Assembly (NCBI GenBank): GCA_949317995.1
Contig: OX439040.1
Location: 25,956,030-26,020,029 of the forward strand
Source: Acholoe squamosa
Lineage: Eukaryota > Annelida > Polychaeta > Phyllodocida > Polynoidae
Reading direction: 5' to 3'
Length of the DNA: 64,000 bases
The translations under genes and the position numbers were made by a program. Shown piece by piece: positions 1 through 61,205 of this stretch (positions are counted from its first letter, which is position 1; the number at the start of each line of letters is the position of its first letter). The notes beneath the pieces were generated by a model. It was given only the letters and a program-made list of their open reading frames with translations. It was not told where the DNA came from and did no database searches.

Positions 1-346
1 AGAAACTAATTATGATCTGTAACATTATTTTGCCTTTGTACCCTGTCTATGTATTTATTTTCTTAACTATAGTACTTATGTTAAATCGCTGTCATGCTGC
101 TGCTATGGTTCAACCCACCTGTACCAAGCTATGAAAATATACTATACCTTTAGAGGGTGCGGCATTAAGGCCTATGCCCCTTTTATGGTAGCAACTTTGA
201 AAATTGATTATGGAGTCTGGGGGGGGCTCTGATTGTAATTTTAAATGTAAACTCTACCTGTTAGCAATGTACCTTGTATTTTCTAACATGAAACAAATTA
301 TGCTATACAACACACAGTATTAACTGATTTAAATGGCACCAAGGGA

Positions 347-3617: not shown

Positions 3618-3672
3618 ATCCTACTGCATCCACGGGAAGAGGTACCAGTGATGAAAGAACAGGGCTTTGCTT
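3618..3672 (+). pseudogene. Truncated exon 7 of DEG/ENaC locus 1
   Basis: After an AG acceptor the reading ILLHPREEVPVMKEQGFA closely matches exon 7 of locus 2 (ILLHPREEAPVMKEQGFA). Homology stops there, before the PG motif. It lies 28 bp downstream of the poly(A) of the upstream retrotransposon. Confidence 0.75.
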
Positions 3673-7335: not shown

Positions 7336-8007
7336 CTATCTCAAGTTAACACAAGCTGACACTAATTTGCTGGGATTCCTCCCCTTCCCAACTGATATGA
7401 TGATTCATTTTTATTCATATTTTTATGCAAAAATGACTTTTCTCTTTATTTTAGAGTGTTTATTTAGTTTCTGTTTGTCGGCCATACTGCTAACACCAGG
7501 GTGCATAACACTTTATTTGATTTTTTTTTGGTGAAATTTACCGTAAAAAATAAAATAAAATATATGAGATAAGCAACATCCCAACCTTTATAGTGAGAAT
7601 AAAATATAGGGAAGCTGAATTTTATCATGTGCTGAGAACACACGTTCCAATAGAAAAGCATAGGAAGAGCCAGGGCCTGAAGAAGTTGCATCATTCCTCA
7701 GAAAAACCCCTAGTCCTCAAGTTGCCCAATGTCACACGAAATGTCAGTCTCAGTACATCATTGATAACTGTGGATGCCAAACAGAATATATGCAGTCAAT
7801 AACCAAAAATACTAGTGAGTAACATTTTAGATGGTTTTTTTATATATATTTCAAGATGCACCAGGGCTAGAGGGTTATTGATTTAAGATCATACACTATA
7901 ATAATTCATGATGATAACTCCAGGTTATTCTATGTTGTGAACATTATGCAGACATTATTACAATTCTTTGTAATATTCATCTATCATTTCTTTCTACTTT
8001 GCTGCAG

Positions 8008-8055
8008 GTGTATGTGATTTCAAGACCACACTATCCTGTGTCAGGCAAACACTTG
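8008..8055 (+). pseudogene. Exon 9 of DEG/ENaC locus 1
   Basis: This 48-nt exon lies between a TTTGCTGCAG acceptor and a GTAAGA donor. It reads VCDFKTTLSCVRQTL, matching locus 2 exon 9, and supplies two ectodomain cysteines. Confidence 0.75.
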
Positions 8056-8380: not shown

Positions 8381-8544
8381 CAGAGATGACAAAGTCAAAA
8401 TGGCGGTGTGACTGCAAACCTCCGTGTAAGCAGATTCACTACAACCCACAGCTATCATACGCTCAACTCTCCAAGTTCAACATAGACCGCATGATTCTCG
8501 ACCAACCAGAAAAACAGAAAATACTTCAAGAGTCTTATTTGAAG
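8381..8544 (+). pseudogene. Exon 10 of DEG/ENaC locus 1 (C-x-C-x3-C cluster)
   Basis: This 164-nt exon lies between an ATCAG acceptor and a GTACTG donor. It encodes WRCDCKPPCKQIHY and then LSYAQLSKFNIDRMIL, the last cysteine cluster of the DEG/ENaC ectodomain. It is nearly identical in plan to locus 2 exon 10. Confidence 0.8.
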
Positions 8545-8652: not shown

Positions 8653-9732
8653 GCTCGTGAGATTACCCAGCGCTACAGAGAGGAGGTAAAACAAAAGGAT
8701 ACAGCTGATCTAGTACGACTTGTAACTATAGCTGACAGACTGAATCACATCCTACAGAACATCAGCAAAAATGTAACTGACCCACTCACTACATCTCATC
8801 ACTACAACCTTCCTGCCATCATTGTTCCACACCCCCTCAACATGGACGTAGTAACAATCAGGCAAAGACTCATGAAGTTGAAGGACATCATGCATGAAAA
8901 TGCTGATCGTCTTAAGCGCCTAAAAGTTTTATTGTATGGTCTCCTGCCCTTGGATATAATATTTGAGGAAAGGTTTTTGAGTATGTGCTTTAAGGAAACA
9001 AATAATCCTGAAGATTTCAAATCTGATATGTTAAAAGGAGATGCACTTACTTATGTTATACCTACATGCAGAGATGAATATATACATTTAAAGGGTGTCA
9101 GATTGAGAACATATCTTGAACGTTTAACATATTACAGTAAACTTTTAGATATTGGACAGTATGAAACAAGTTATCATAATGTTATAACCAGCATCTTTGA
9201 GGATACATCCAAATCACCTGAAGTATCTGAGAGTCACAGAAACTGCCTACATGTCATAGGCTTAGGAGCAGAAATCAAGAAAACTGCCTTTACTTTTACT
9301 AATTACACAAAGGAACTATTCAAAGTTCAGACACTGAAACATCATAGATGGCTCTTAAAACAAATCAAAGAACTCAAGTATCAGGGACTGCTGCTTGAAG
9401 CATCTATGAACCTGACCCTGTGCAGTTGGGTTAAAGGAATCTTCAATGAGATTTCTTCTGGGCTGAATCTACCTCAGCTCTCAAACGAGGCATTTCAGCA
9501 AAACAACAGACTGTTGACAGCCTTTGACGACATGTCAGAGACTATGGTTTTTATGGCTTTGGACTTTGAGGTACTGGTGGAACCAATTCTTGAGATGATT
9601 GCTGCCTACACAACTGGAAATACCACCAAGATGGATCTCTCCAGACATATGCATTCTCCAGTGAAGACTTGCATTATTGGGAGACTGAGTCAATTCGAAA
9701 GCAGTGCCTACAAAGTCATCAGGTCACTCCAG
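8653..9732 (+). pseudogene. Exon 11 of DEG/ENaC locus 1 (giant insert exon, still open)
   Basis: This 1080-nt exon is open throughout (360 codons), with a TTTTAG acceptor and a GTACAT donor. It aligns along its length with the 1095-nt exon of locus 2. The most conserved part is the 3' end: FDDMSETMVFMALDFE, then SRHMHSP and AYKVIRSLQ. It is predicted largely helical and hydrophilic, with no membrane segment. I recognise no domain family in it. The open frame inside an otherwise broken gene suggests recent loss. Confidence 0.75.
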
Positions 9733-9980: not shown

Positions 9981-10181
9981 AAGAAATTGACAAACTTCTA
10001 AAATGTTGTTATACCAATATATGCGAAAGTAGCTAAATCACCACTACCGCTACTGAAGGTGGGGAAGGTGAAGAGTCTGGAGTTTATCAAAAGGGCTTAT
10101 GCGACTAGACGAGCTGATTTCCAAGACCTTATAGATCGTCTCTCCAAGAATATGACAAATGTAAAAATACTACTAAGATTG
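9981..10181 (+). pseudogene. Exon 12 of DEG/ENaC locus 1 with in-frame stop
   Basis: This 201-nt exon lies between a CTTTCAG acceptor and a GTAGGC donor. TAA at 9999-10001 replaces the lysine codon found in locus 2. The rest reads SPLPLLKVGKVKSLEFIKRA, like its partner. Confidence 0.75.
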
Positions 10182-10360
10182 GTAGGCTACCATTTAAAAT
10201 TGGTTTTCAATCCCCTCTAACTTCTTAATGCAACCTTTATCGGTTTTTATTAAAGAGACACCTCAACATCATTATACTGAAGTCCTTTTCATTTAGTTTC
10301 CACCATCGATAGTCAGAAGGGTAATGCCAGAACTGTTATAATCAGGTTTTCTGATCTCAG

Positions 10361-10492
10361 ATATTCTCTGAGTTTGATAATGGGTTTCAGGAATTTCTGG
10401 AGGCACTAATTGGGCGATTCAAAGAGTTATCTCTTGCGTGATCAACTCCTTGAGTATGCAGAATCTAATACACTGAATGTGAACTTCTTTAT
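10361..10492 (+). pseudogene. Exon 13 of DEG/ENaC locus 1 with 14-nt deletion
   Basis: It reads IFSEFDNGFQEFLEALIGRF and then loses 14 nt relative to locus 2, giving TGA at 10439-10441. Downstream bases still match locus 2 as far as the GTAAAT donor. Confidence 0.7.
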
Positions 10493-10526
10493 GTAAATAT
10501 ATGTTTCATATATTTCAAAACTCGTA

Positions 10527-11135
10527 CACTGCAAAAATGGTGTTTAGATTTTAAACATGTTTAGGTCTAAACACGTTTAAAACCTAAACATATAGGTCAG
10601 TTAGGTGTCTCATTGACTACACGTTTAGAAAATGAACACTTTTATTCTAACTACATAAACATTTACGCTAAACATGTTTAGATGTTTAGAGTTGAGACAG
10701 TTGAATAATAACTGTTTAGATTTAAACATCAATATGTTTAGATACTTGGATGTTGAATCCACACCAGGTAGCAGCACTACCTTTGACTGGACTATCTGCA
10801 CACAGTTATAATCAATTGTTCTGACAAATGTCCCCAAATCCCATGTTTATTATGATTTCATTTCATAGAATGTCATCTGAATAGAAAGGGCAATAGTAAA
10901 TTGACTAGATTCACCTCATGCCACCATCACTAGCATAAAAAATCAATAAACTCCATGACTGACACCTATTTGATGTTATTCTGGAATAGATAAGGCAATG
11001 TCCTTCCTGCCAAGCTGTTGTACTTTCTTAAGTCTCTCATTCTGATGCAGTGTGTACACGTATATAACTGTGGCTGACATCTTTGGAGACTTTGACAAGT
11101 AAATACATGCTGATGCCCCCCCACAGTAAATGGGA

Positions 11136-11180
<45 letters not shown>

Positions 11181-11442
11181 GTTTTTTAATGCATACTTGT
11201 CTGCAAACCTTAACTCTCCATCAAATCATTTAAACATCTAAACACAAAAATTCATAAACACCTAAACACAAAAATTCATAAACACCTAAACACAAAGTTT
11301 TGACCTAAACACCTACATTTCTAAACACTTGAGCTAAGCACATTGTTTGGCTAAACATGTTTAGGAAATTAATGTGATTACAAAAACGTTGCAAGAATCT
11401 GTTTAGAATTGTGTTTAGGATCTAAACACCATTTTTGCAGTG
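10527..11442. mobile_element. Non-autonomous DNA transposon with CACTG ends
   Basis: The 916-bp element has inverted ends starting CACTGCAAAAATGGTGTTTA and is flanked by TA on both sides. The interior is packed with iterated CTAAACATGTTTAG-like palindromes, a 22-bp tandem repeat (about 11238-11300) and an (AT)n run. It sits in the intron between exons 13 and 14 of the channel pseudogene. CACTG ends recall EnSpm/CACTA or Chapaev families; the 2-bp flank does not settle it. Confidence 0.75.
11141..11178. repeat. (AT)n microsatellite
   Basis: An uninterrupted AT dinucleotide run inside the CACTG-ended element. Confidence 0.95.
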
Positions 11443-11607
11443 TATTCATATTTAATGACCATTGCAATGAAATGTAGGGCCTGTGATCTTCTATGTATTA
11501 AATAAAGGATGCTTTGACTTTTCTATACAAAATTATAGTGGCCATATTATTGAGGATACACTGAAATCAAATTTCACATCTTTAACTACAAATGTCTCAT
11601 GTTTTAG

Positions 11608-11861
11608 GGAAAACTTTCTTCAAGTGGATATCTTCTACAAAGACATGTCATTTGAGGTGATCACCCAGCAGGAGACATTTGGTGCACTTAGTCTTCTCAG
11701 TGAGGTGGGAGGCTTCCTAGGGTTGTTCTTGGTGCCAGTGTTATCACCGTGTTTGAACTGCTTGACTATCTCATACTTAATATGGTTGCTAGCTGTGCTC
11801 ATTACCAAAGTGACCATCAAAGTGTTGTCAAGGTACTGACATACCATTGTCATATGTAAAC
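11608..11861 (+). pseudogene. Exon 14 of DEG/ENaC locus 1 with frameshift at TM2 filter
   Basis: After a TTTTAG acceptor it reads ENFLQVDIFYKDMSFEVI and LLSEVGGFLGL. A 1-nt deletion near 11721-11730 then shifts out the GAS filter and TM2. In the restored frame, GASVITVFELLDYLIL is still legible up to a stop near 11861. Confidence 0.8.
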
Positions 11862-12843: not shown

Positions 12844-13070
12844 TGGTAGGTACAATAGCACCACCTGTAAAACAACATGGAATTTTACCAAAACTAACTC
12901 ACTATTAATTTTAGGTAATTAGAGTCCTCTCCTAGGAAATCCCTCCCTTCTTTCAAAACCAGGAAATAGAAATATGTCCTGCTTACAAAGGTGGCATGTT
13001 TATTGATTCACAAGGAGAAGGGAGATGGACTGTTTTGATTAGTAGGGAGCACAGAAGAAGCAGATTTTGT
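12844..13070 (+). repeat. Left 227-bp direct repeat
   Basis: It starts TGGTAGGTAC and ends CAGATTTTGT, and matches 14507-14733 over its full length with few differences. The homologous element at 23.1 kb lacks a second copy. Confidence 0.85.
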
Positions 13071-13340
13071 GGGGCGGCCTACACCTTAGATCAGGCTAAC
13101 AGTGATCATGATGCATTCCTGGCTCTCACTGCTGAACTCAGCCTGGAGTTATCCCTCAAAAAACGCCAGCCACTAACTCAACAACTTGAATGGCTAGGGT
13201 TTGACTTTAACACAGTAAACATGACTATCGCATCTCTAAATGCATACCACAGAGCAGAAAGTTCATCTGCAGAATTCTTTAAATTTTCAGAAAATCACCG
13301 GAACAGGGTGTTGTCTACCTCACAAAAGGCTTCCAGCTAG
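13071..13340 (+). pseudogene. Reverse transcriptase fragment (DIRS/Ngaro-like)
   Basis: It reads DAFLALTAELSLELSLKK and LEWLGFDFNTVNMTI, matching the RT segment just after the YLDD box in the 23-kb copy. The YLDD box itself is lost, and a deletion removes the segment that follows VNMTI in the other copy. Confidence 0.7.
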
Positions 13341-13603
13341 ATGTGCGTTGGTTTTACATGTATGCTAGAGTATGTTATGGAATACACTTCCCTGGCAGAT
13401 GAGTTCTGGGTTCAGTGCGATTCAACACTCAAGAGTGGAGGTGGAAATTCAGAAACTCATTATTATTCTCTAGACTACTCAGAGAAGCAGAAACATAAGT
13501 ACCCACTCTAACTCACCTGGAAGCCATCAATCTCTTAATTGCATACAGAACTCTCGTCCCGGAGACCACACAGGGCTACCTCATCATACTCTATACAGAC
13601 AAT

Positions 13604-13867
13604 ATGGCTTCAAGCCAGGCACTGCATACAGGCAGATCCAAAGACCCAATTCTTGCTGCCTGTGCTAGACAACTGTGGATAGAGGCAGCCAGAGGTGATC
13701 ACCATATTGACATAAGACACAAGCCGGGCAGGGATATATCACTGGCGGATGCTCTCAGCAGACAGAACCTCCCCGACAAATTGAAATACGTTAAAAGTGA
13801 TGTCAAGGCTAGAGGGCTCAGCAAGCTGGAGCCAGCCTCAGCCATACCACTGTTTGACCCTATCTGA
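13604..13867 (+). pseudogene. RNase H fragment of DIRS/Ngaro-like element
   Basis: Upstream bases encode LYTDN (catalytic aspartate box). The open stretch then gives LAACARQLWIEAARGDHHI and RHKPGRDISLADALSRQN, the C-terminal RNase H signature of retroelements. It is almost identical to 23763-24026. Confidence 0.8.
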
Positions 13868-13899
13868 TTCCCTTTCAGACTGCCCCCTAGGGCAATAGC

Positions 13900-14506
13900 C
13901 TATTACATTTTTAAAGCAGCATCCGAAGAAGCTACAGAGGTCAATAGAATTAGGCAGGCAACATACTACTTGACTTTTGCCTTGGACTGTGGGGTGAATC
14001 CCCTCTTTCCTTCAATCGCTTATGCAGCTTTGTATGCACAAACTCCTTATCTGCCCCGGCTAGAAAGAACTATCTCCAGATGTTGGATAGAGGCCAGGGG
14101 CGGTGACCCATCACCACTAACATCACTAGAATGTAACTCAGAACTCAAAGGTGCTTCGTTATTAACCCACACAAACCAGTACCAGCACCTGCACTATTGC
14201 CTAAAGACTTAGTGAGAGTGTGAATTTCTCCACTCAGCTGAGGATGGACCTACCATTATCGCTGCACCCACAATAGGCTACTTCAGGTTTCTGAGAGCAT
14301 CTAACTTACTGTCCCCATCACTTGCTTTTTGGTCGGGCCCTCATTCTCTACTCGCAGGGACATTGTGTATACCATTACTGGACTCTCAGTGGTAATTAGA
14401 TCTTCAAAGACAATTCAAGTCGGCTCTAACCCACTTGTCATATCTTTGTTATATATACCCAACTCTCCTGCTTGCCCTACACAGGCCTGGGTTAGATATG
14501 CATCAC
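13900..14506 (+). pseudogene. Tyrosine recombinase fragment of DIRS/Ngaro-like element
   Basis: It includes RRDIVYTITGLSVVIRSSKT at 14350-14410, resembling the recombinase arginine/lysine box of DIRS-type elements. It is cut off at 14506 by the right direct repeat, so the C-terminal RRGGS box seen in the other copy is missing. Confidence 0.6.
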
Positions 14507-22440: not shown

Positions 22441-23000
22441 CACAGGGATTAATATTTCATTTTAGAGGTCTTAAGTGGTTAATGGTGACCAGTTGGGACA
22501 GATGTTGATTTCATCTCGTCTTATCTGGTCTTCTGCTTACCCTTTAAGACCTCTAACCAATCAGGGGCAGCATGTTAAAATGTGTCCCAATTTTGCTATT
22601 TTTAGTAGTATTTACCGTCACTACTGAGGTAGCTTTAGGCGGACTGTTGGGCCCCTTTACAGCCCCCCCCCCCTTTCTGCCATGGTTTAATACCACCCCA
22701 CTACTCCAAAAGGCCTAAGAGCTACAAGGCCAAAGAAAGATTCAAGTGCTAGGAGGACAGTATTAGACCTGTCTCATCCTGATGGTACAGGAGTTAATGG
22801 CAGTATCACTAAAAACTGTCTCCATGGGTTTCTATGCCCATACACCCTTCCATCAGTAGATGATCTTTGTACAAAGATCAAGATCCTAGGTGAGGGCGCT
22901 TATCTCTGGAAGGCAGATCTAGCCTGCGCTTATTGCCAACAAAGGACCTGTCCAGGTGATTTACCATTGCTGGGAATGAAAGTACAAGACAATTACTATA

Positions 23001-23432
23001 TTGACTTATGCCCCTCGTTTGGTGCCAGCCTGCCAAAGAACTGTCAATGCAGTAGTGGACCTTATGGGTAAACAAGGCAGATGGACCCTGGCATACCTGG
23101 ACGATTTCTGTGGGGTGACACACACCTTAGATCATGCTAGCAGTGATTATGATGCATTCCTGGCTCTCACTGCTGAACTCGGCCTGGAGTTATCCCTCAA
23201 GAAATGCCAGCCACCAACTCAACAACTTGAATGGCTAGGGTTTGAATTTAACACAGTAAACATGACTATTACAGTACCTACAAAGAAACTGGAAGATATA
23301 GAAAATGAGTGTGTGTCCTGGCTTAAGCTCTCATTTGCATCCAAACATGACATACAATCACTGGCTGGAAAACTCAATCACATCTCTAAATGCATACCAC
23401 AGAGCAGTAAGTTCTTCTGCAGAATTCCTTAA
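23001..23432 (+). pseudogene. Reverse transcriptase core of DIRS/Ngaro-like element
   Basis: It contains RWTLAYLDDFCGV with the catalytic YLDD, then GLELSLKKCQPPTQQLEWLG and FNTVNMTITVPTKKLEDIE. This RT style, with L-LSLKKC-WLG-F, is typical of DIRS/Ngaro retroelements. The open frame is a surviving piece of a longer protein; flanking parts are in other frames. Confidence 0.75.
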
Positions 23433-23762
23433 ACTCTCAGAAAAGCACCGGAACAGGGTGTTGTCTACCTCACAAAAGGCTTGCAGCTAGATGTACGTTG
23501 GTTTTACATGTATGCAAGAGTCTGTAATTGAATACACTTCCTCATTCCCTCGGCAGATGAGTTCTGGGTTGAGTGTGATTCAACGCTCAAGAATGGAGGT
23601 GGAAATTCAGAAACTCATTATTATTCTCTAGACTACTCAGAAGAGCAGAAACATAAGTACCCACTCATCACTCACCTGGAAGCCATCAATGTCTTAATTG
23701 CATACAGAACTCTCATCCCAGAGACCACACAAGGCTACCTCATCATACTCTATACAGACAAT

Positions 23763-24026
23763 ATGGCTTTAAGCCAGGCACTGCATACAGGCAGATCCAA
23801 AGACCCAATTCTTGCTGCCTGTGCTAGACAATTGTGGATAGAGGCAGCCAGAGGTGATCACCGCATTGACATAAGACACAAGCTGGGCAGGAATATATCA
23901 CTGGCGGATGCTCTCAGCAGACAGAACCACCCTGACAAATTGAAATACATTAAAAGTAATGTCAAGGCTAGAGAGCTCAGCAAGCTGGAGCCAGCCTCAG
24001 CCATACCAATGTTTGACCCTATCTGA
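23763..24026 (+). pseudogene. RNase H domain of DIRS/Ngaro-like element
   Basis: Upstream LYTDN near 23749, then LAACARQLWIEAARGDHRI and SLADALSRQNHPDKL. It ends at a stop at 24024-24026, where the recombinase frame should follow. Confidence 0.75.
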
Positions 24027-27250: not shown

Positions 27251-27461
27251 CTATGCTTTCTTTCTACAAGCACATCTACCAGCCACATTAAGTATGAGGT
27301 AGTCAAGCAGCTCAAACACAGTGATAACACTGGCACCAAGCAACAGTCCTAGAAAGCCTCCCACCTCACTGAGAAGACTAAGAAAACTGAATGCCTCCTG
27401 CTGGTTGATCACCGCAAATGACATGTCCTTGTAGAAGATGTCCACTTGAAGAAAGTTCTCC
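27251..27461 (-). CDS. DEG/ENaC exon 14 (pre-TM2, filter, TM2, tail)
   Basis: 211 nt including the stop. Encodes ENFLQVDIFYKDMSFAVINQ, LLSEVGGFLGLLLGASVITV and FELLDYLIL. GAS is the family selectivity filter. A short cytoplasmic tail has CACRKK. Confidence 0.9.
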
Positions 27462-30400
27462 CTGAAATGTAAGATACATGTTTAGGACAAGCAATAGTTT
27501 TCGGTCACTCTAGTTACTGCTGATGCTTTTGAGTAATTTATTCATCGGCATAACTCTAAAATAAGTTAAACTCGCCACCAACTGTGAAACTACAGCTCAC
27601 CATTTCTGCCATGGGAGAGGCAGTACAGGGAGAGGCAGTACAGAATTAAATTTAAAGAATGCCACTTGAAACGTTACAAAGTACATCACCATTAGCATAT
27701 GCTAGTAGAAATTGAGACCTTGGTCATCATAATAATTATATATTTGCATAGGAATAATTTTTTGAACCAATGAAAGATATATTTACATGAAAAAGTTCAC
27801 ATTTAGTGAACTTGATTCTGCATACACAAGGAGTTCATCACGTAGCAGTGCCAGGTGGTAGGAGAGCTGTTTGAAAGGTCCAATTAATGTGTCTAGAAAT
27901 TCCTGAAACCTGTCATCATACTCAGAAAACACCTGGAATTAAAAATCTGTGTACTAAATAAGTGTAAACAGCCTACATGCAAATTATTGGGTATGAATGT
28001 ATACATTCATGTAACTCCTTTTTCATGTAATAATTTATGCAAACTTACAAATCAATACACACTGAATTGCTATAAAAGAGTGACATACCATTTCAATCAG
28101 TACCTGCACCTTGGTCATATTGTCAGATATACCATCTATGAGATCCTGAAAATCAGTCCTCTTTGTGGAATAAGCCCGTTTGATAAACTCCAAGTTCTTA
28201 ATCTGCTCGACCTTCAAGAGTGGCAGTGGCGATTCCGCTATCTTCACGTAAATGGGTAAAATGACATTCTTAAAGTTTGTCAGTTTCTTCTGAAAGAGAA
28301 ATTATACCTGCACAGCTTAAATTGAATTGAGCAGTACATAACACAACTACCATAAACCATGTAACCTTGCACATAAGCTATGGTGTATAGACAGAGGCTT
28401 ACTGCAGCTTAAAGAGTCTCCAGCAACTCTTGGTGCAGCTTGTGGGACTTTACTTGCAAGGGTAAACTGCAACATTTTCAGACCCTTACCGCATCAGTGC
28501 GAAAAACTCGAGATATTGCTTATAGGTATGTAGATGCAGCTTGTAAATATGAGAGATTCTATGGTAGTTCCAGATTTTGGATGAGAATTTCTATTCTAGT
28601 TGTACTTGTAACGGCATATTGTTATCTGCACATCAACACTACCATTATGCACATTGATTTCCTCGTGTTACCAATAATAGACATTTAACACAATATTTTC
28701 AATTTATCCCTACCTGCAGTGACCTGATGACTTTGTATGCATTGCTTTCAAAGACACTAAGTCTGCCAACAATCCAAGTCTTGATTGGGGAATGCATATG
28801 TCTGGAGAGGTCCATTTTCGTGGCACTGCCATTCATGTAGGCAGTGATCATATCAAAGATGGGTTCCACAAGCTCCTCGAAGTCTAGAGCCATGAAGACC
28901 ATAGTCTCTGACATATCATCAAATGTGTCTAACAATCTTCTGTTATGCTGTGTGGCTTCTCCTGCGGCTCCATAAAGATTTAGTCTGTCATAAATCTCCC
29001 TGAAGGTATTACCTACCCAATCACAAAGCGTTAGGTTCACAGATACTGTGTGCAGAAACTGCTGCTTCATTATGTCTCTTATCTTCTTTAAGAGCCACCT
29101 GTGATATTCTAGTGTCTGAACCTTGAATAGTTCCTGGGTGTAATTATTCATGCTGGAGGCAGTCTCTTTAACTGTTTCTCCTAGAGCCAAAACATCCTGG
29201 CAACCTTTGTGACTTGTAAATGTGTCAGCCGATTTATTTGAATTCTCAAACAAGCTGGTTATTACATTGTGATAGCTTGTCTCATACTTTTGGATATCTA
29301 GTTGCTTATTAGAATGAGTTAAACGTCTGAAGTAATGATTCAAACTAAAGCCCTTTAACCTTACAACTCTGCATGTAGGCATCATAACATATGTTGATTT
29401 ATTTTCGTCTGACAATTTGATGTTGTTACCCTGAGCACTGTCACCTAGCTGTTCTAAAGTTGTTTTTCTGAAACACCTATGCAGAAACCTCTCCTCAAAT
29501 AACATATTCAAAGGTTGGAGATCATGCAACAACATTTTCAGGTGCAAAGTAAGCTTGAAATGCTCATCTACCATATCCCGGACCACTCGGAGGCTATTCC
29601 TGATTGTATTTAAGTCCATGTGGAGGGGTTGTGGGACAATAATGGCAGGAAGGTTATAATAGTGAGATGTTGTTAGTGGGTCAGTCACTTTTAAGCTGAT
29701 GTTCTGTAGGACATAATTCAGTCTATCAGCTATGGTGACAAGCCGTATCATGTCTGTCATATCCTTTTGTTTTACCTCCTCCCTGTAGCGCTGGGTAATC
29801 TCACGAGCCTAAAATGTAAAAGGATAAAAAAAGATTTTGTACATACTGGATTTAAAAGCTGAAACCTATTGGTTATATACATGCATAATGGATCATGGAT
29901 GCTTTAACATTCCAATCCACAATAGAAACACTGTACCTTCAAGTAGGACTGCTGCAATATTTTCTGTTTCTCAGGGTTATCCAGTATCATGCGATCTATG
30001 TTGAACTTGGAGAGTTGGGCATATGAAAGTTGAGGCTCATAGTAAATCTTCTTACATGGAGGCCTGCAGTCACATTCCCATTCTGACATTGTCATCTCCA
30101 CTGAAATACATGTTAAAAGGTTTATGGCATCTTCTTTGTTTGTTTTTTCAAGGAATGGGGTCCAAATGCTAGTATGCTCTTGATCCACATAGTATGTACT
30201 CCATCCATTTTCAGTTCATAATTCCAAACTGACATACCTGACCTGTTATAACATGCAGGTCGCGGCCGTGCTTATGATAGGTCATATCTAGACTCTTCCC
30301 AAAATGTCCAGAAATGTGAAAACTTGAGAGGCTGACATTAAATCAAATTGTATAGAATCATAAAGGCTCTCACCCAATGCCCGTCTGACACAAGACAGTG

Positions 30401-33400
30401 AAGCCTTGAAATCACAGATGACTGCTAAAGAAGACATTGGTAAATTGATACTCATAACCACAGGAAGACGATTCACATAAAAAGGAATTTGAGGATTAGA
30501 ATTTCATTTTCGTCAGGATATTGAGGTCATCTGACGAGTTCTAATTAAGTTGATAGCTGACATTTCTACGGGAAGCGATATACGCAGAAGGAAAAGGTGG
30601 TCACAGGACAGCACAAGGAGAGGGTGGTCACAGGACAGCACAAGGAAAAGGTGGTTACAGGACTGCATGAGTGGAGGATGGTTACAGGACTGCATGAGGG
30701 GAGGGTGGTTACAGGACAGCATGAGGGAAGGGTGGTTACAGGACAGTAACATGAGAGGGTGGTCACAGGACAATGCTATAGTGAGGGTGGTTACAGGACA
30801 GAAAGAGGAAGGGTGGTTACAGGACACACAATTCCTTGTGTTGTCCTGTGACCACCCCTTCCCCCAATTGTCCTGTAACCACCCATTTTCCTTGCAGTCC
30901 TGTGACCAGCCTTTCCATGTGCAGTCCTGTGACCAGCCTTTCCTCACCTTGTCCTGTGACCACCCTTTCCTCACATTGTCCTGTAACCACCCCTGCCTCA
31001 TGTTGTCCTGTGACCACCCCTGCCTCATGTTGTCCTGTTACCACCCCTGCCTCATGTTGTCCTGTAAACACCCCCTCATGTTGTCCTGTGACCACCCCTG
31101 CATTATGTTGTCCTGTAACCACCCCCTCATGTTGTCCTGTAACCACCCCTGCATCATGTTGTCCTGTAACCACCCCCTCATGTTGTCCTGTGACCACCCC
31201 TGCATCATGTTGTCCTGTGATATCCTTTTCCTCGTGCATGTAGTGACACTATATGCATGAGGAGCTCGTTCGTATATCATCGGCCCATTTCTACATCATT
31301 TCCAATGTCAATAGGGCTTATATAAGAAAGGAAAGGCATTTATTTTAGGACCAAACATTTAATTGGTATAACCCAAGTCAAATGACTATACAGATAAAAT
31401 GGTACTCACTCGTATTTCTAATGATGGGCTGCATGTACTCTGCTTCACAATTGCATTTATTGATGATATCACGAGCCTGACATTGGGTGTAACACACAGA
31501 AACTGGAGGGTTATTTGGGTGGCAGATGCCATATGGTGGCTGTAGTGTTGTTACCTGAGATAGATAATTATACCAAAGAGGATATAGAAGGGGGAAATGT
31601 AGATATGTCATCCTTATCTATCATACTAGAGACCTAGACAAGGTTTTATGCATATGTTTGTTACCACCCTGGTTAGCACTTATCCACTTATGGCTACTAT
31701 AGGTGCAAGACCTTTCTGCACTAGAAGATGATCGTGGGGTAATTTGTTAGCTACCGGAAAAGGGTATTTAGTCCTCAAACTTTTCCATGACAATTTGGAT
31801 GGTACTCACATCATGAATGCCAATGGCTTTCATCCATCTTTGTTGCTATCAGGGTGTGAGTGCTACTACATCATACATCTTTTCGACTACCAGGATGTGA
31901 GCGCTACCTACATCCTAAATCCTCATGACTACCAGGATGTGAGTGGTACCTACATCATAAACCTTCATGACTACCAGGCGTGGGTTCTTCTTAGGAAGTG
32001 ATCATTTTTTAACAACAGGGGGGGGGCGGTGGGTTTGAGGTGGGGGGGTCAGAATTTTTTCAACCCCTTGACCGGGGGGTCAGAATTTTTTCAATACCTC
32101 TGATGGGGGGGTCAAAATAATTTCACCTGTTTTCAGTGGAAAACCCCCCGCGTTACTATAGGCTAAAAGGGGACGTTCGCGCACGATTTTTGTCCCTTAC
32201 GGGGGGGTCAAAAAATTTTTACCCCCTCAAGAGGGGGGGTTGAATCTTTTTTTGCGCGTCCATGCGCAAACCCACCAGCCCACCTGTTGTTAAAAAATGA
32301 TCACTCCCTTAACTCAGACCTTGTCATTGCTACCAGTGTGTGGGTACCTGGTGCCGCAGCAAAGCCCTGTTCCTTCATAACTGGAGCCTCTTCCCGAGGG
32401 TGTAGCAAGATCTGGTTGTGATTTCAGCAATTAGATTATCTCTACAAAGTATTCATTATACAACAAGTCTTTTGTGCTTTTGCTTGCAGTCACAATTATC
32501 ATCATTCAAGTATATGTCGCATCCCCTGAACCCTTCATGCCCCAAACTTACAATAATTCACTTATTTTCCGCAGTAATTCATGATGACTATCCTACTGTG
32601 AAGAAATACAAAATATCATATAATGGCATGACATAAGTTCATATCATGACATAAACCTGGATTCCACCAAAACCGATAATTTTCATGTTTTTTGTCGGAC
32701 TCATTGGGCTTTTGTCGGGCCGACAAAATTGGCTGTGCAAAACCTGGTCGATTTTAGCTCTTCCACTGAGCTGCCAGACTATGGGATTCTGTATCTGATA
32801 GATGTCTGACAGTCATCCCCAATGACTGCGAGCTGTTCCAGCGGTCACATGATCGGCGATGACCTAGTTTCAACAAAGTGGAGGTCAAGGAAGTCGCCTT
32901 GCTCGAGTGTGCATGCGACAGCAGGTGTTTTGGCACTAGAGGATGGGAAAATGAAAGTACTAGCGGGCCTAAAAAGGAAACACAGGTATCATGCAGCCCC
33001 CTACCTAAGGGACAGGACCGATGACAGCCAGAGAAATACCTTCACCAAGCTGCTCCATAACCTGATATCCGCAAGTATAGATGCAAGGGGGGGGGGGGTT
33101 TGGTACTGTACTCCCTGGTCTATGTTTGTGTGTCGGGTAGGGGGCGCCCATCAGTGTACATCACATAGATATTCATATAATACCTTATGTTTTTTGTTAA
33201 TTTTTTCATTTTAATTCAACATTTCAACGAACTAGAATTTTTTTCCTGAGTTGAAACATGCAACCATGTTAATATGTGAAAACAGTTAAACTTTACTTTA
33301 GCTCTGTCTACCTATGCACCATAAAATCGTGTTGGATTCCCGAGAGGAAACATGATTGTAACCCCTCTGCATGTTAGTATATAGCATGGAACCATGTGAA

Positions 33401-36400
33401 CATGTAAAAATGTTAAACATCACTTTATATCTGTCCTCTATGAGGAGCACTTTTCTTCATGAAACTACTGCATGAGATATTAAATATGACTCTGTGTTTT
33501 TATATAAAAGTCTTCAGATCTTCACATGTCGATATAAACCCGATAAAAATAGGTCTCACCCGTCTTGGTAACCCAAACAATGCACGATATCATGGAAATT
33601 AAAATCTGAACTTTCATATATGATGTGTTGATAAAAAAAATAACCTGATTGTTTAATTCCTGCAGACAGTCTCTCCTTTTCTTTGACAAAGACTTCCATC
33701 GTTGAAAAATTTAACCCTTACAGACTAGACTAACAGTTCAAAGTTTTAAACTCTCTCATCATCTACATGAGTACCGAGTGAACTTAAGATTCTAGGATAA
33801 ATAATGATCGGCCTGCATCTGCGACAGTTCTTGGCCTATTTATAAAGTCAACACTGCAAAACAAAACATGTAAGTAGTGTCATTAGTATACAGTCGGGGG
33901 TAGAGAGCAGGCAACACCTGCTTACATTCCATCCCATTCACCGTTGACAGCCTGCATGGCTGTCTGATAGATGTGAACTTTGAACTTATCCTTCACCTTT
34001 TGTGTCATTCGTCCAATTTCCATCTCTAACATCTTGCACCACTGTGTGTTAGGAGATACCTCCCTTGCTGGGGAGAGCAGGTTGGGCCTGAGCCTGGGCT
34101 CTCTGGCCCACTATGCCCACCAGATTGTTCAACGATTTCCCTTACGACTCAAAGTATTTGTCTTGGGACAGGAGTATCTGACACTGAATTTTTCTGAATG
34201 TTTTAGGTGCTGTGGCTCTCTCTTAGCCAAGTACTCAGCCTTGGCAGCATTACTTGCCTCAGTTTTCTTGGGGATTTTGTAATTTATTGTTTTACGATTC
34301 TTGCCATTGGTAGATGGAACAGCACCCTGATTGGTGGCAGATTTACCAGACCCCTTGCCCTTACTAGGGGGAGTAGGACGTGCCAAGAAGTGTTCTTCCT
34401 GTGAGGAGAGAATTGGGTCCTAGTGGCAATAGTATCATTTTCATCATCAGATGACTCTCCGTCAGGTTAGTAGTTTTCGTCCTTCTGACTGTCATCTTCC
34501 TCCTCCTACTGGTCAACCTTATCGGCCACTGGGATGCCTCCTCCTGGGATTTGGGCTCTACAGTCTCCTGTATTTAAAAAAAAAAAAAGATGTTTAGGAA
34601 GTCATCCGAGTCAAAAGAAATTAACTGTTTTCATAGATTCCTGCTGTTGTCATGTAGGGCTTCTCTAATATCTTGTTGATATGTACACAGACAATGAAAA
34701 TGTTTCATTAATTTCCTGTTTACCTTTTTCTGTGGATAGTTGGTGTCGTTCTCCAACTTCTTACACCAGGGATCTAAGAACCGACACAAGCGTTTTATCA
34801 GTGCTTTCATGTAAGGCAGCTTCCCCTCCTTAGCAGATGACCCCAGCTTGACTTTACCTGAGACGATTTTCTGGTAGTCGGATATCAAAGAAGTCATGCG
34901 CCTATTTATGAAGTAGGCTAAAATAAAAAATAAAAAATGAACATGGGTACAAGATAAAGCATGCCATAAATTACCAGGACTGAGTTACTACATGCAATGA
35001 AATTAAGGGATCTTCTGTCCTCCTATATATTATCTATATATTTGTTTTGTGAACACTCTCAGATTGGTATGTGTACACATATTGTAATAAAAAAATACTT
35101 ACCTTGGATATTGAGTTCATGGAGGGCCTTTGACAGAGACCTTCTGGGCAGGGGGCCAGATGAACATGAACTTTGAACTGGTGTGTCTATGATTTTCCCA
35201 GCGTTTTTCTTCTTTTTCTGAGGAGGGGGGGGGGTTGGAGAAGCTGGAGAGCCACCTTCCTCCCCCTTCTCCAAATCGGATAGCAGATTACGCTTGGTAC
35301 CGATGTTTTTAAGCAGACAGGGTAGAGGACCAGAGGAGCCACCGGTAGCCCCCCCCCCTTCTTAGACACGGGAGTTGAAGTAAGGGGTGCCTCTTGACAC
35401 TGTCTGGTTTAGTGAGGTCTATAGGTGAACGATCCTCCTGTCTATTTCCTCCATTTCGTCATCCACCACTACCTTGGTGGCCTTTTTTTTTTGCACCAGT
35501 TCTTTTCTTTTTAACCATTACCGACTGAGCGTCCTCGATCTCCTCCGCTGTCTTATCAGGTAAACGGGGCTTACCTTGGGCAGAGAAACGTTTGGGAGCT
35601 TGCTTAGGTTGATTCTCTGTGTCATTGACATCTTCTGCTGCTTCTGTTTTCTGTCTGTGAGGATTAAAAGACCTATTTCCCTGCCCCCGACGCCTTGAAG
35701 TTCATCTCCCGACATTTTGTTTGTTTACAAACAAATCAAAGGTCATATGACTTGCATCTGACACACAGCCCAATAGCGATACCCCAAGTGAGAAAAAGGG
35801 GAACTACTTTTGTTTCCTGATGAAAAGAATAGACTTCTTCCACGAAGACAATTTCGGCCCGATTCTTGCCCGACAGGAGCCTGACAGTGCCCGATAGATG
35901 GTGGACGGTCCCCGATGTGTCCCCAACACAGGGCGATGACCAAATCGGACAAGAATTGGCTTTGGTGGAATCAACCCCATAACATATCTCCAATGTAATG
36001 CAAAAAAAAAGAAGAAAAAACAAACAAACGAACCCTGTCTTTTGCTGAATATTGAATCTGATGACATGCTGTAGACCTTAGACATTCAAATAGCCTAGAT
36101 AGTAAATTGCTAGAACTACCACTCTCCTTCCGTAATATTATGAGTAGAAATCATCACCTTTATACCAGCATCATTTTGAGGGCCTCTCATGTACTCATAC
36201 TGTTCAATATTAACCACAAGCTTCAGTCCACTGCCAGCTCCTGCAACCAAATCACATTGATATATTTTCAAAAACTATAAATCTATTGTTCTGTTTGGCT
36301 GACTACCTTCTTCAGTAGACCTCTAGTGGAAATATTATCCAGACCTGAGTTGTTATGAGCTACTTAACAGTACTGCGATGGATAACGGTGGTAAAAGGTA

Positions 36401-38058
36401 TTTCTAAAAAATAAAGGACTATGTGAAATACCTGTTTTTCATTCTTAGAACAAGTGTTTTACCTGCTTCATGTGTAATGACTGCAGCCGTGTTTTCCTTG
36501 CCATTGAAGGTATAGCAGAGGCCAAGATCTGTGAGCACTGCCTTGAAGTCCCTGTCAATGTCACAGTCTATGCCATTCCATGTACAACTGAAACAGTAAA
36601 GATGCGTGTCTCTAATATAGAAGAGGAGTCAGAATATAAGTAAATGAAGACAAGGGACAGCAAGCAGAAACAAATTTCACCACATTGCCTCAGGGCCACA
36701 GGGCTAAAGATTATCTTTACAGCAAAGGTTTGCTTTGATAGAACTGTTATGTCTAGGGCAAAATAAGTTATTTAAGACTGCCAAAGTCCAACTCACCTGT
36801 CAATAAATCGGTGTCTTTGATGTCCTGTTTGCATTGTAAATTCGCCATACCTGATGCCATTGACTCTGCTTTCAAATTTGCTCCAGGGAATTTCTAGAGA
36901 CAAATGCAAACTGATTGTCAAATATCATCTAATTGAACCTTTTCATGAAATGTATGTTCTGTTTTCTTTAAAGCAAATTTATATATTTTACCTTTTTTCA
37001 CCTTGTGATTTTTTACCTTGAAAACGGTATGGCTTTGCAGCCTACACAGCCTGTAGTTTTTGAATTACTATGTTATTTTGTCACGTGAATTATAATAGTT
37101 TGTAGCCTTTTATGTCAAGGACATTGAATTGTTCACTTTGATTATTACGTGTGATACAAATTAACCTAGCAATTCGCCTTACGAGATGTATTACTTCTTT
37201 TGAAGACTTCATCAACAACATCATACAGGCCGTGTTCTACTACCGCAGTTGTTCTGCAATATACACACAAATAAATTAATTCCAGTGCTCCATTCAAAGA
37301 ACGATATTTCTACTAGGATTCCACTATGATTGGGGGCTCTCAATTTTCTTTAAATAAAAATGTGAATCAATTGCTCTACATTTGCATGCCTACGAAATGG
37401 CGTTGTTTTACAAAGAAATAAAGATAATCAACAACCTGTGTCTGTTCTGATTGCAGATAGTTATGGCTGGGAACACCAGTGAGTCAGTATAATACAATCC
37501 AATGGCAGTTGTAGTTTCATACTCAAAATAGTGACCAGTCCTGATCCCAACTTGTATGACAAACACTAAGAGTGCTGTGACAACTACTGACAACCAGACA
37601 GGCCTGTTGAAAACATTTGATGTTATAAGATTTATTAGCGACTTTAATTGTAATTGTTAGTTGTCTTAATCGCTATTGATGCACAGAATCCTGCTTACAA
37701 GTTAATTATGTACTCCAAAATGTTGGTGTTATGTACTCCAAAATGTTGGTGTTACCTTGGTGTTACTTTCAAAACAAGCATTTATGTCATTAACATCTCA
37801 TCTAGTGCAAAATACACAGAAAATACATGATTAAATTAAGGGTACAAATGTGATGAAATTATGCTCCTTTACATACCTCCTGAATCTTAGCCTGGACCTT
37901 TCAAAAATATAGCGTACACCATGAAACGTTGTCCTCTCTGTGAATTCTGTCCACGAGACAACCTGTCTAGGACTGATATCATCTGAAATGGGAAGATATT
38001 CTTCTGAATCCAGCTCCGTAGATTCCTCAAGGACATCTCCTGCTTTGAGCGATCCCAT
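27251..38058 (-). CDS. DEG/ENaC-family cation channel with giant ectodomain insert (14 exons)
   Basis: Trimeric sodium-permeable channels of this family open to protons, peptides or force. Joining 14 exons gives 2835 nt in one frame, 944 residues plus stop. Landmarks: HG gating pair at 46-47, TM1 about 64-80, FPAITICNQNR at 105-115, CTWNGIDC at 174-181, GLCYTFNG near 194-201, PG at 263-264, PPYGIC at 281-286, CxCxxxC at 349-355, pre-TM2 ENFLQVDIF at 876-884, GAS filter at 917-919, TM2 to about 933, and a short basic tail ending RKKA. Usual members are 500-700 residues; here residues about 395-875 form an extra, mostly helical, cysteine-poor region just before TM2. All junctions follow GT-AG except exon 7, whose donor reads TT. 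The ATG at 38058 is chosen because it precedes the HG block without an upstream in-frame alternative seen. Ligand and ion selectivity cannot be told. Confidence 0.85.
27787..27932 (-). CDS. DEG/ENaC exon 13 (insert ends)
   Basis: 146 nt. Reads VFSEYDDRFQEFLDTLIGPF and LSYHLALLRDELLVYAESSS. The donor is GTAAAT. Confidence 0.8.
28089..28289 (-). CDS. DEG/ENaC exon 12 (insert continues)
   Basis: 201 nt, phase 0 at both ends. Reads KKLTNFKNVILPIYVKIAES and LEFIKRAYSTKRTDFQDLID. The donor is ATG|GTATGT. Confidence 0.8.
28714..29808 (-). CDS. DEG/ENaC exon 11 (giant insert exon)
   Basis: 1095 nt, 365 codons, with a TTTTAG acceptor and a GTAGGG donor, both phase 0. The sequence looks helical and charged (for example LTLHLKMLLHDLQPLNMLFE), with a few scattered cysteines and no membrane segment. 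Its 3' third (FDDMSETMVFMALDFEELVE) is nearly identical to the locus 1 copy. I recognise no known domain. Conservation of frame and ends in two diverged copies argues that it is coding. Confidence 0.82.
29937..30100 (-). CDS. DEG/ENaC exon 10 (CxCxxxC cluster)
   Basis: 164 nt. Encodes SEWECDCRPPCKKIYYEP and LSYAQLSKFNIDRMIL. In ordinary family members TM2 follows within about 50 residues; here the insert begins. Confidence 0.88.
30374..30421 (-). CDS. DEG/ENaC exon 9
   Basis: 48 nt. Encodes IICDFKASLSCVRRAL, two conserved thumb cysteines. It has the same length and splice phase as the pseudogene exon at 8008-8055. Confidence 0.8.
30570..31285. mobile_element. Foldback-like transposon, copy A1, in intron 8 of the DEG/ENaC gene
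   Basis: 716 bp, flanked by a 9-bp duplication CATTTCTAC (30561-30569 and 31286-31294). Ends are GGGAAGCGATATAC and GTATATCATCGGCC, an imperfect inverted pair. The whole interior is two inverted arms of 24/27-bp tandem repeats (GGTGGTCACAGGACA unit, then its complement) meeting at ACACAATTCCTTGTGT with almost no loop. No protein is encoded. Drosophila foldback elements have the same plan and a 9-bp duplication; that comparison is from general knowledge. Confidence 0.85.
30590..31235. repeat. Inverted 27-bp minisatellite arms of copy A1
   Basis: Left arm about 30590-30833, right arm about 30834-31235. Units of 27 bp, and some of 24 bp, keep both strands open for long stretches without being genes. 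Confidence 0.9.
31410..31554 (-). CDS. DEG/ENaC exon 8 (cysteine-rich thumb)
   Basis: 145 nt, with a CTCAG acceptor and a GTGAGT donor. Encodes LQPPYGICHPNNPPVSVCYT, then CQARDIINKCNCEAEYMQP, matching PxPYGxC...C...C....I...CxC of the family. Confidence 0.88.
31858..31985 (+). repeat. 42-bp minisatellite in intron 7
   Basis: Three units of GACTACCAGGATGTGAG followed by a TACATCATAAA-type half. It lies between exons 7 and 8 of the channel gene. Confidence 0.8.
31997..32305. mobile_element. MITE in intron 7, next to exon 7
   Basis: 309 bp with near-perfect 23-bp inverted ends starting AGTGATCATTTTTTAACA. The interior is G/C-rich with several G-runs. No clear target duplication. The right end is 7 bp from the exon 7 junction whose donor is lost. 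Confidence 0.8.
32313..32411 (-). CDS. DEG/ENaC exon 7 (PG block), donor site lost
   Basis: 99 nt, exactly 33 codons, after an AACCAG acceptor. Reads ILLHPREEAPVMKEQGFA and APGTHTLVAMTRSE, the family PG block. The expected donor GAG|GTAAGG reads GAG|TTAAGG, so the intron start is TT. A GT exists 8 nt inside the exon but would shift the frame. The end of a MITE lies 7 bp beyond the junction. Confidence 0.75.
33924..35715 (-). pseudogene. Nested lysine-rich gene of unknown family, probably decayed
   Basis: It lies within intron 6 of the channel gene, same strand. Pieces: a basic start region (about 35690-35480; KTEAAEDVNDTENQPKQAPK in one frame), a proline/lysine segment ending at a GTAAGT donor (to 35103; PASPTPPPPQKKKKNAGK), a clean exon 34917-34724 (AYFINRRMTSLISDYQ, then FLDPWCKKLEND) with AG and GTAAAC borders, and an exon from 34567. 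The last includes an acidic stretch (EEEDDSQKDEN) interrupted by stops and SKGKGSGKSATNQGAVPSTN. A final piece reads MEIGRMTQKVKDKFKVHIYQ, with WDGM at the end. Stops and frame changes suggest a pseudogene. I do not recognise the family; lysine and acid blocks suggest a nuclear protein or a mobile-element protein. Confidence 0.45.
34724..34917 (-). CDS. Best-preserved exon of the nested unknown gene
   Basis: 194 nt after a TTTTATTTTAG acceptor, ending at AAAAAG|GTAAAC. One frame reads RRMTSLISDYQKIVSGKVKL and LCRFLDPWCKKLENDTNY. It joins in phase with the exon ending at 35103. Confidence 0.5.
35104..36157. other. Part of DEG/ENaC intron 6 with decayed coding and repeat sequence
   Basis: Apart from the nested gene pieces, 35740-35990 carries repeated GCCCGAC/CCCGAT motifs. 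It also has a GATTCCACCAAAGCC segment (on minus) resembling GATTCCACCAAAACC at 32660, perhaps the end of a dispersed repeat. Confidence 0.35.
36158..36240 (-). CDS. DEG/ENaC exon 6 (palm)
   Basis: 83 nt. Encodes GAGSGLKLVVNIEQYEYM and NDAGIK, the palm strand pattern GL.L.LN....EY...AG.K. The donor is AAG|GTGATG. The intron that follows is 3.7 kb. Confidence 0.85.
36463..36587 (-). CDS. DEG/ENaC exon 5 (first cysteines)
   Basis: 125 nt. Encodes CTWNGIDCDIDRDFKAVLTD and GLCYTFNGKE, matching the family pattern CxWxGxxC...F...T..G.CYTFN. Confidence 0.88.
36797..36893 (-). CDS. DEG/ENaC exon 4
   Basis: 97 nt between a CTCTAG acceptor and a GTGAGT donor. Reads WSKFESRVNGIRYGEF and GHQRHRFIDR in frame. 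Confidence 0.7.
37183..37253 (-). CDS. DEG/ENaC exon 3
   Basis: 71 nt between a TTGCAG acceptor and a GTAAGG donor. Reads VVEHGLYDVVDEVFKRSN in the frame carried from exon 2. Finger-domain start, little conserved. Confidence 0.7.
37436..37603 (-). CDS. DEG/ENaC exon 2 (TM1 and post-TM1 motif)
   Basis: 168 nt. Encodes the hydrophobic stretch VWLSVVVTALLVFVIQVG, then YYTDSLVFPAITICNQNR, the family's post-TM1 signature. The donor is CAG|GTTGTT. Confidence 0.88.
37877..38058 (-). CDS. DEG/ENaC exon 1 (cytoplasmic N terminus)
   Basis: 182 nt, with a GTATGT donor. An acidic start (DSEEYLPISDD) is followed by WTEFTERTTFHGVRYIF, the conserved N-terminal gating segment with HG. Confidence 0.85.
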
Positions 38059-57515: not shown

Positions 57516-58335
57516 TGTTGGGTTCCATTATGTCCACCCATTCCAATGTATCCATCAGATCCTTCATTTTGTTTAGTCCAACATGTTTTGTTCCAAAATT
57601 ACTTATTCCTTTGTCCACATTTTGTCCACCAGCTCTTGTTTCAAAATGTCCACCAAAAGTGTCAAAATTCCATTGTGTCCACCAACTCTTGTTCCAAAAT
57701 ATCCACAAAAATTTCAAAATTCCATTGTGTCCACCAGGTTTTGTTTCGAAACATCCGCAAAAGGTTCAAAACCCCATTTTGTCTGCGAGTTTTTGGTTCA
57801 ATATCTCCACCAAAAGTGTCCAGAAACCATTCCATCCACCAGCCCTTGTTCCAAAATATCAGCAAAAAATGTTCAAATTCCATTGAGTCCCTAGGTTTTG
57901 TTCCAAAATGTCTGCAAACAGTTCCAAAGTCCATTTCATTCACAGGGTTAGTTCCAAGTTATCCACAAAAATGCCCAGGTTTTATTGTGTCCACCAGGTT
58001 TTGTTCTGTTTTGATGCCGTCCACAAGTATTAGTTCCAAAATGTCCGCAAAATTGTCCACATTCCATTGTGTCCACTAATGATGGCTTATTCTGTTTTGT
58101 CCATAAAGGTTTGTTTCAAAATGCCCGCTAGTTCCATTTTTTCCACTATGTTTTGTTCCAAAACGCCCGCTAATTTCATTTTGTCTACAAATGTTGAGAT
58201 GCCATTCTGTCCACCAAAAGTTGTTGTGAAATGTCCACCAATTCCATATAGTCAGCCAGGTTCCCTTCTGAAATGTGCATATGAATTGATATCTGATGAG
58301 GCCTCAGAAGAAGTCTGATATTGTTTGAACATATC
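57516..58335 (+). repeat. Left arm of foldback-like element B
   Basis: About 16 diverged units of roughly 50 bp. Open frames in three phases are products of the repeat. Confidence 0.75.
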
Positions 58336-60312: not shown

Positions 60313-61205
60313 TTCAAAACAATCAGACCATTTCAACTACTGAGTCCTCATCAGATATCAATTTATATGCACATTTCACAAGAGAACCTGATGACTATAT
60401 GGAATTGGCGGACATTTCAGAACAAATTTGGTAGACGGAATGGCATCTGAACATTAAAATTTTGCAAACAAAATGGAATTAGCTGATGTTTTGGAACCAA
60501 ACATGGTGGACAAAATGGAGTTGGCAGATATTTTGGAACAAAGCCTGTTAGACAAAATGGAATTAGCCACTGTTAGTGGACATTTTGGAATGTTGACAAT
60601 TTTGTAAACATTTTAAAACAAATACTTGCGGACATGGAATTTGGAACTTTTTGAGGACGTTTCGGAACAAAACCTGGTGGACACAATGGAAATTGGCATT
60701 TTTGTGGATAATTTGGAACTAAACCCTGTGGATGAAATGGAACTGTTTGTGGACATTTTGGAACAAAACCTAGGGACACAATGGAATTTGAACACTTTTT
60801 ATGGACATTTTTGAACAAGAGCTGGTGGATAGAATGAAATCTGGACACTTTTGGTGGTCAAATTGGAAAAAAACTGGTTGACAAACTGGAATTTTGAACT
60901 TTTTGTGGAACTTTCGGAACAAAACCTGGTAGACACAATGGAATTTTGACAATTTTGCGGATATTTTGTAACAAGAGCTGGTGGACATAATGGAATTTTG
61001 ACACTTTTGGTGCACATTTTGGAACAAGAGGTGGTGGACAAAATGGAATTTGGAACTTGTTGTGGATTTTTTTGGAACAAAACCTGGTGGACACAGTGGA
61101 ATAAGTATATTTTGGTGGACATTTCGGAACAAAAAGATGGTGGATGAAATGGAATTAAGGATCTGGCGGATACATCAGAATGGGTGGACATAATGGAACC
61201 CAACA
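60313..61205 (-). repeat. Right arm of foldback-like element B
   Basis: Inverted partner of 57516-58335, with units such as GGTGGACACAATGGAATTT. Confidence 0.75.

Follow-up and report, generated by a model that had tools for sequence, protein, structure and literature searches.

Predicted DEG/ENaC channel genes with a large insert at the knuckle in the polynoid worm Acholoe squamosa

Exon structure and channel core of the gene

We analysed a stretch of 64,000 nucleotides from Acholoe squamosa, called the window below (C6:25956030-26020029, C-numbers being contigs), and searched the whole 1.48 Gb assembly of 63 contigs for relatives of one gene on its minus strand. This gene, running from 38058 to 27251, joins 14 exons in one frame to 944 residues of a predicted DEG/ENaC channel, in which exons 11 to 13 form a large insert. 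Both the gene model (14 exons, 944 residues, the motif positions and an exon 11 of 1095 nt) and its reading as a channel with an insert of about 480 residues had been proposed in an earlier note on this DNA. Rebuilding the gene one exon at a time, splice sites and phases included, reproduced the model exactly, and the channel reading is well supported by a match to ASIC in two blocks and by a family of paralogs. As to the source of the DNA, a mollusc, suggested at first by 18 large contigs, was discarded when a search yielded no mollusc haemocyanin domain, a weak argument given that the control genomes yielded none either, and an echinoderm is disfavoured by a mitochondrial COX1 that is readable with genetic code table 5.

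Exon 1 (37877-38058) carries the start codon and the N-terminal HG motif (TTFHGVRYIF), and similar first exons, which by nature have no acceptor, are present at the loci L025, L029 and L035. The first transmembrane helix (TM1) and FPAITICN are encoded by exon 2 (37436-37603), followed by exons 3 (37183-37253), 4 (36797-36893) and 5 (36463-36587), by the palm in exons 6 (36158-36240) and 7 (32313-32411; ILLHPREEAPVMKEQGFAAAPGTHTLVAMTRSE), and by the thumb in the cysteine-rich exon 8 (31410-31554) and exon 9 (30374-30421). Exon 10 (29937-30100) brings CDCRPPC, the CxCxxxC motif, at residues 349-355 and begins the knuckle stretch. The main insert exon, exon 11 (28714-29808; 1095 nt, 365 codons, four cysteines), and exon 12 (28089-28289), in which the insert goes on, are both of phase 0-0; the insert ends in exon 13 (27787-27932), where the channel fold resumes (SLNVNFF), and exon 14 (27251-27461) holds the strand into the second transmembrane helix (TM2), TM2 itself with GAS, the C-terminus and the stop. 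ENFLQVDIF stands at residues 876-884, which gives a distance of 520 residues from CxCxxxC. Exons 3 to 9 and 11 to 14 rest on the gene model, joined by the paralogs for exons 7, 12 and 13, by homology and selection for exon 11 and by an alignment with ASIC for exon 14. The reading frame stays open through all 14 exons, and the 12 donors other than that of exon 7 are GT.

Hallmarks of DEG/ENaC channels are the HG motif, FPAxTxCN, CxCxxxC and G-x-S in TM2, and all four can be read in the 944-residue model, as the earlier note had claimed with its "every family landmark". The Pfam family ASC (PF00858) matches the gene in two stretches (E 3.5e-82, 277.3 bits vs a cut-off of 23.6), and the best of 32 matched PDB sequences are ASIC2 and ASIC1 (E 1.2e-50 to 5.5e-45). 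The alignment with solved ASICs covers residues 38-369 and 871-930, corresponding to residues 21-380 and 397-456 of the ASIC2 chain; whereas ASIC has a short alpha6 region of about 16 residues (381-396, which we take to be alpha6), about 500 residues replace it in the window gene. Common to ASIC1, ASIC2, ASIC5 and the window gene are the N-terminal HG, FPAxTxCN, the GAS pore motif and 14 core cysteines. From TM1 to CxCxxxC the window gene and its paralog on C1 each have 14 cysteines, the number that the seven conserved disulfides of the DEG/ENaC ectodomain need (PMC6197857; this and the other papers cited are drawn on in excerpt), the pairing being predicted.

In the trimer, alpha6 is part of the knuckle-finger collar at the top (PMC6197857, PMC7413742), and in FaNaC1 the neighbouring subunit contributes its alpha6 to the FMRFamide pocket (PMC11026163). 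The insert runs back into strand 12, which links the lower palm to the membrane (PMC6197857). With moderate confidence, the alignment suggests that the knuckle helix alpha6 is opened to hold the 480-500 extra residues of exons 11-13 in those members that could be followed. The earlier note had placed the insert beside the pore gate, which is unlikely because alpha6 belongs to the top collar of the ectodomain.

By match scores, and not by a cross-phylum tree, the gene appears to lie on the ASIC side of DEG/ENaC. The FaNaC and WaNaC channels of molluscs and annelids have the same fold, with alpha6 in the peptide pocket there, but they match more weakly (Aplysia FaNaC E 2.9e-20, Malacoceros FaNaC1 E 6.6e-11), and at 175 bits for ASIC2 against 75 for Aplysia FaNaC the window gene is not closer to FaNaC, again by match score and not by tree; to our knowledge neither FaNaC nor WaNaC has such a knuckle insert. 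Extra extracellular modules are found elsewhere in DEG/ENaC, namely in the EGAS channels of C. elegans, where EGF repeats of known fold are combined with the ASC domain at a site other than the knuckle, whereas the window gene has an unclassified domain at the knuckle. The alpha, beta and gamma subunits of ENaC likewise combine the DEG/ENaC fold and a knuckle-finger collar with an added regulatory ectodomain module, the GRIP domain, which is part of the finger, and we know of no large knuckle insert among them. This GRIP domain is protease-sensitive (PMC6197857). Proton gating of ASIC depends on H73 and K211 as determinants (PMC10507113), and such ASIC-style gating is unlikely here because the position of H73 is T in all five genes in which exon 2 could be read; the position of K211 is K in one of nine genes, both positions having been lined up by eye. 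The insert family could be among the uncharacterised lophotrochozoan groups near BASIC (PMC10507113).

The junction between exons 7 and 8 of the window gene lacks a GT donor. It reads GAG/TTAAGG at 32312, with TT instead of the GT present in nine of nine paralogous copies read, one of which (L038) is itself decayed, and an alternative GT one base earlier would, as read from the sequence, shift the frame into an immediate stop. Directly abutting exon 7 we found a 328-base element (31985-32312, recognised by sequence and BLAST) similar to a miniature inverted-repeat transposable element (MITE), with terminal inverted repeats and TAA at each end, related pieces of which occur in L024, L025 and L027 and which presumably resembles the PIF/Harbinger MITEs. 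Because exon 7 has no GT donor and the element abuts it, the window copy is probably disabled, and it is rather likely to be a dying or null allele which does not produce the 944-residue protein, the family being functional elsewhere; the neighbouring copy in the window is a pseudogene as well. Against this stand the 12 intact donors and the 14 open exons, the possibility of a single-base assembly error or a polymorphism at the donor, and the fact that skipping of exon 7 keeps the frame with a loss of 33 palm residues. A null allele would concern this locus only and is compatible with a functional subfamily. At L023 and L024, part of the end of exon 7 (APGTHTLVAMKRYE-like) recurs several times within intron 7 at a spacing of 49 bases, apparently as a minisatellite that arose from the exon end and the donor site.

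Insert-bearing paralogs in the genome

Exon 11 as query gave 14 matches in the genome and three other members gave 13, 16 and 12, which combine to a total of 15 insert loci. Eleven of them possess a full-length open insert exon and are spread over five contigs (two on C1, one on C2, three on C3, three on C6 and two on C12), and the other four are C3:77.18 with two open blocks, the decayed C12:10.9 and half copies on C17 and C18. The nine full-length insert exons outside the window comprise 355-375 codons and are open, bounded by AG and GT and of phase 0-0, as are the two in the window; so many open and splice-bounded copies are far beyond chance. Channel exons lie near every insert locus except the C17 fragment, which duplicates a portion of the C18 one and where insert exons only are present. 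Over their longest shared stretch the half copies on C17 and C18 are 96% alike. The larger stretches around them (L037 4187-6790 on C17 and L038 3813-6900 on C18), each with half an insert exon and exon 12, are 94-96% alike and stem from recent inter-contig copying of an already decayed gene.

Nine paralogous genes show the same exon order and nearly the same exon lengths as far as fetched, the fetched stretches holding only exons 11-14 for C3:1.16 and only exons 1-11 for C12:3.84. As exon edges were sought with the phases of the window gene, agreement in phase is partly built in; despite this, nearly all AG and GT of the paralogs fell on the expected base. Discarded from the survey were exon 5 of L023, whose first part is unreadable, and spurious matches for exon 1 of L031 and exon 12 of L032. 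In three paralogs exon 12 was found as an open stretch of phase 0-0. The paralog on C1 (L035) is complete, with 14 exons and 958 residues within 7.1 kb and no internal stop, its donors being GC at exon 1 and GT at all others. The concern that the two halves of the model belong to different genes, named in the earlier note as what would refute it, was checked at the paralogous loci, where, as far as fetched, the two sets of exons stand side by side with their order unchanged.

A genome search with the TM1 exon resulted in 38 matches, the best 13 of which (52-100% identity, the window gene itself counted) pair one-to-one with 13 insert loci, while the remaining 25 are at most 42% identical, except for one match of 33 residues at 56%. 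Two of the 13 paired loci are decayed, namely the second copy in the window (copy 1) and C12:10.9, and in the pair C3:1.10/C3:1.16 the TM1 exon and the insert exon are 64 kb apart with exon 10 in between. Exon 10 found 20 matches, 14 at insert loci and four in long open single-frame reading frames of DEG/ENaC type. As a control within the same genome we used eight single-frame DEG/ENaC genes, and in the four with both landmarks a pattern search gave 104-111 residues from CxCxxxC to G-x-S, compared with 568 in the window gene. The family of insert-bearing channel genes thus appears to be real and its predicted architecture well supported, and the insert is old within the genome.

The alignment of the 11 insert copies contains 16 invariant columns, four of them cysteines. 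Each insert exon has 5-11 sequons for N-glycosylation, the number and position of which differ among the paralogs. No transmembrane helix was detected in the insert of the 11 copies, whose highest mean hydrophobicity is 1.6 compared with 2.5 for TM1 and 2.0 for TM2, and a comparison of the insert halves revealed no internal repeat (hhalign E 0.3). The earlier note had also proposed to compare the insert with Pfam and structure databases, and no convincing relative was found in Pfam or PDB: Pfam scans of 11 members hit 11 families with one member each, DUF6075 being the best (E 1.2e-4), a match to KaiA was below the cut-off (E 0.016), and the single match of a PDB profile search (E 0.8) was taken as chance. 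AlphaFold models of exon 11 from the two copies in the window reached a pLDDT of 35 and were not used, their helices being merely a hint.

Mean identity is 0.63 in five core exons and 0.28 in the insert; in all 36 pairs the insert has the lower value, and core and insert identity are correlated (r 0.88). Exon 5 of L023 was included in this comparison and excluded from the estimates of omega, the ratio of nonsynonymous to synonymous change. Omega is 0.18-0.43 for the insert exon in eight of nine pairs, those with finite synonymous divergence (dS) and one of them including the pseudogene copy 1, and 0.08-0.30 for core exons in seven of eight pairs, with the insert above the core in all seven comparable pairs; since many pairs approach saturation of dS, these values are rough. 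They indicate purifying selection on the insert exon, also on exon 11 of the window gene, for which the earlier note had considered transcripts that skip it. Because exon 11 is of phase 0-0, it may be skipped in part of the transcripts. Groups with a support of at least 97 in the core tree (the C1 pair, the C12 pair, and C6b with C1) recur at 100 in the insert tree, the C3 pair is supported by 96 in the core tree and only 45 in the insert tree, and the deeper nodes of both trees are weak and discordant, most of all for C2. The trees would fit a single gain of the insert before the family spread.

Possible role of the insert and rival explanations

Our leading reading, which we hold at about even confidence, is that the genes encode a genuine subfamily of trimeric sodium channels on the ASIC side of DEG/ENaC, with a ligand- or partner-binding head on the knuckle. 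The insert would then be an extracellular, mostly helical and disulfide-braced head on the collar of the trimer, and it would bind a putative ligand, a partner protein or the matrix. By analogy with FaNaC1 and ENaC, contact at the head could move finger and thumb and so open the pore, and paralogs differing in the head may differ in what it binds. More tentative is the further step to a new class of DEG/ENaC receptor channels, in which a so far unclassified helical domain, about 480 residues long, braced by disulfides and placed in alpha6, would act as a variable binding crown, diversified over a conserved core by a multigene family.

The insert, with no convincing relative found in Pfam or PDB, would also represent a new protein domain. 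An ectodomain that hardly differs among DEG/ENaC channels serves to sense protons, peptides, force or proteases, and the route of the stimulus from its top to the pore is still debated. The family would be a natural experiment on gating, since the core is kept and a large head is varied at a site helping to form the peptide pocket of FaNaC. Because exons 11 and 12 are of phase 0-0, the head could be removed without a change of frame. Neither the literature matches listed nor the excerpts of PMC10507113, PMC9822975, PMC10148893 and PMC9234716 include any DEG/ENaC member whose knuckle carries a large insert, in line with the earlier note, which knew of no described member with this layout; animal protein databases may well hold entries of this kind.

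Several points weigh against the binding-head reading. Alignment and literature are the basis for the fold and placement of the head, the omega values are rough as stated above, and the faster change of the insert could also reflect relaxed constraint. Some family members are pseudogenes, and the window gene itself has the junction between exons 7 and 8 that lacks GT. Exons 12-14 of C12:3.84 were not found in the 9.9 kb fetched downstream, and the paralog exon search recovered no exon 12 for the C2 gene. Two further matches of exon 10 lie at sites with no known insert, one at C18:18235369 with one TGA and one at C12:66619715 with 45% identity.

The main rival is a mechanical tether, in which the insert, through its N-glycans and helical head, anchors the channel to the extracellular matrix or cuticle and force on the head opens the pore. 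All 11 copies of the insert exon have 5-11 sequons, and in alpha ENaC N-glycans of the palm and knuckle are reportedly involved in shear sensing. Moreover, delta ENaC responds more strongly to shear once N-glycans are introduced, a response that depends on an intact matrix (PMC7958617). We nevertheless regard the tether as rather unlikely, as the number and place of the sequons vary among paralogs, the matrix partner is putative and the fast change would suit a recognition module better. Second comes a role in assembly or trafficking, where the insert sets which paralogs co-assemble, or merely shields the channel, and does not sense. The alpha6 of ENaC contacts the finger of the neighbour and helps to set the subunit order (PMC7413742), and with about a dozen paralogs in the genome the subunits would have to select their partners, but about 480 residues with conserved cysteines are large for such a role, which we consider improbable. 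That the model joins exons 1-10 of one gene to exons 11-14 of another, or that exon 11 is non-coding, is hardly credible, since splicing, even if inferred from sequence and not observed directly, has to be set against nine paralogous genes of the same exon order as far as fetched, one complete gene within 7.1 kb, 13 of 13 close TM1-exon matches beside an insert exon and an omega below 1 for the insert exon.

The second copy and repeats in the window

Copy 1 lies on the plus strand, and its TM1 exon, 91% identical to that of the window gene, is located outside the window at C6:25951705, 4.2 kb away. Homology to the exons of the window gene identifies an exon 7 truncated to 18 of 33 codons (3618-3671), matched parts of exons 8 (7712-7813), 9 (8010-8054) and 10 (8383-8544), and, also analysed for selection, an open insert exon 11 of 360 codons (8653-9732). 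Matched parts of exon 12, with an internal stop, and of exons 13 and 14, each split across frames, follow at 9981-11799. Copy 1 is a pseudogene, and the claim that this second copy keeps the same exon plan does not hold. Just upstream of it, beside the truncated exon 7, two overlapping pieces with reverse-transcriptase/endonuclease frames similar to those of a non-LTR (non-long terminal repeat) retrotransposon occupy 287-3164.

Two similar RNase H-like retroelement stretches, presumably DIRS-like, are found at 12936-14212 and 22691-24026 and share words such as DIRHKxGRxISLADALSRQN. A 27-base minisatellite forms arrays at 30584-31220 and 62349-63298, 31 kb apart, whose long open frames, present in several readings, are unlikely to be genes. 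Finally, a 52-base tandem repeat is present at 57618-58006 and 60634-61156, in opposite orientations by eye.

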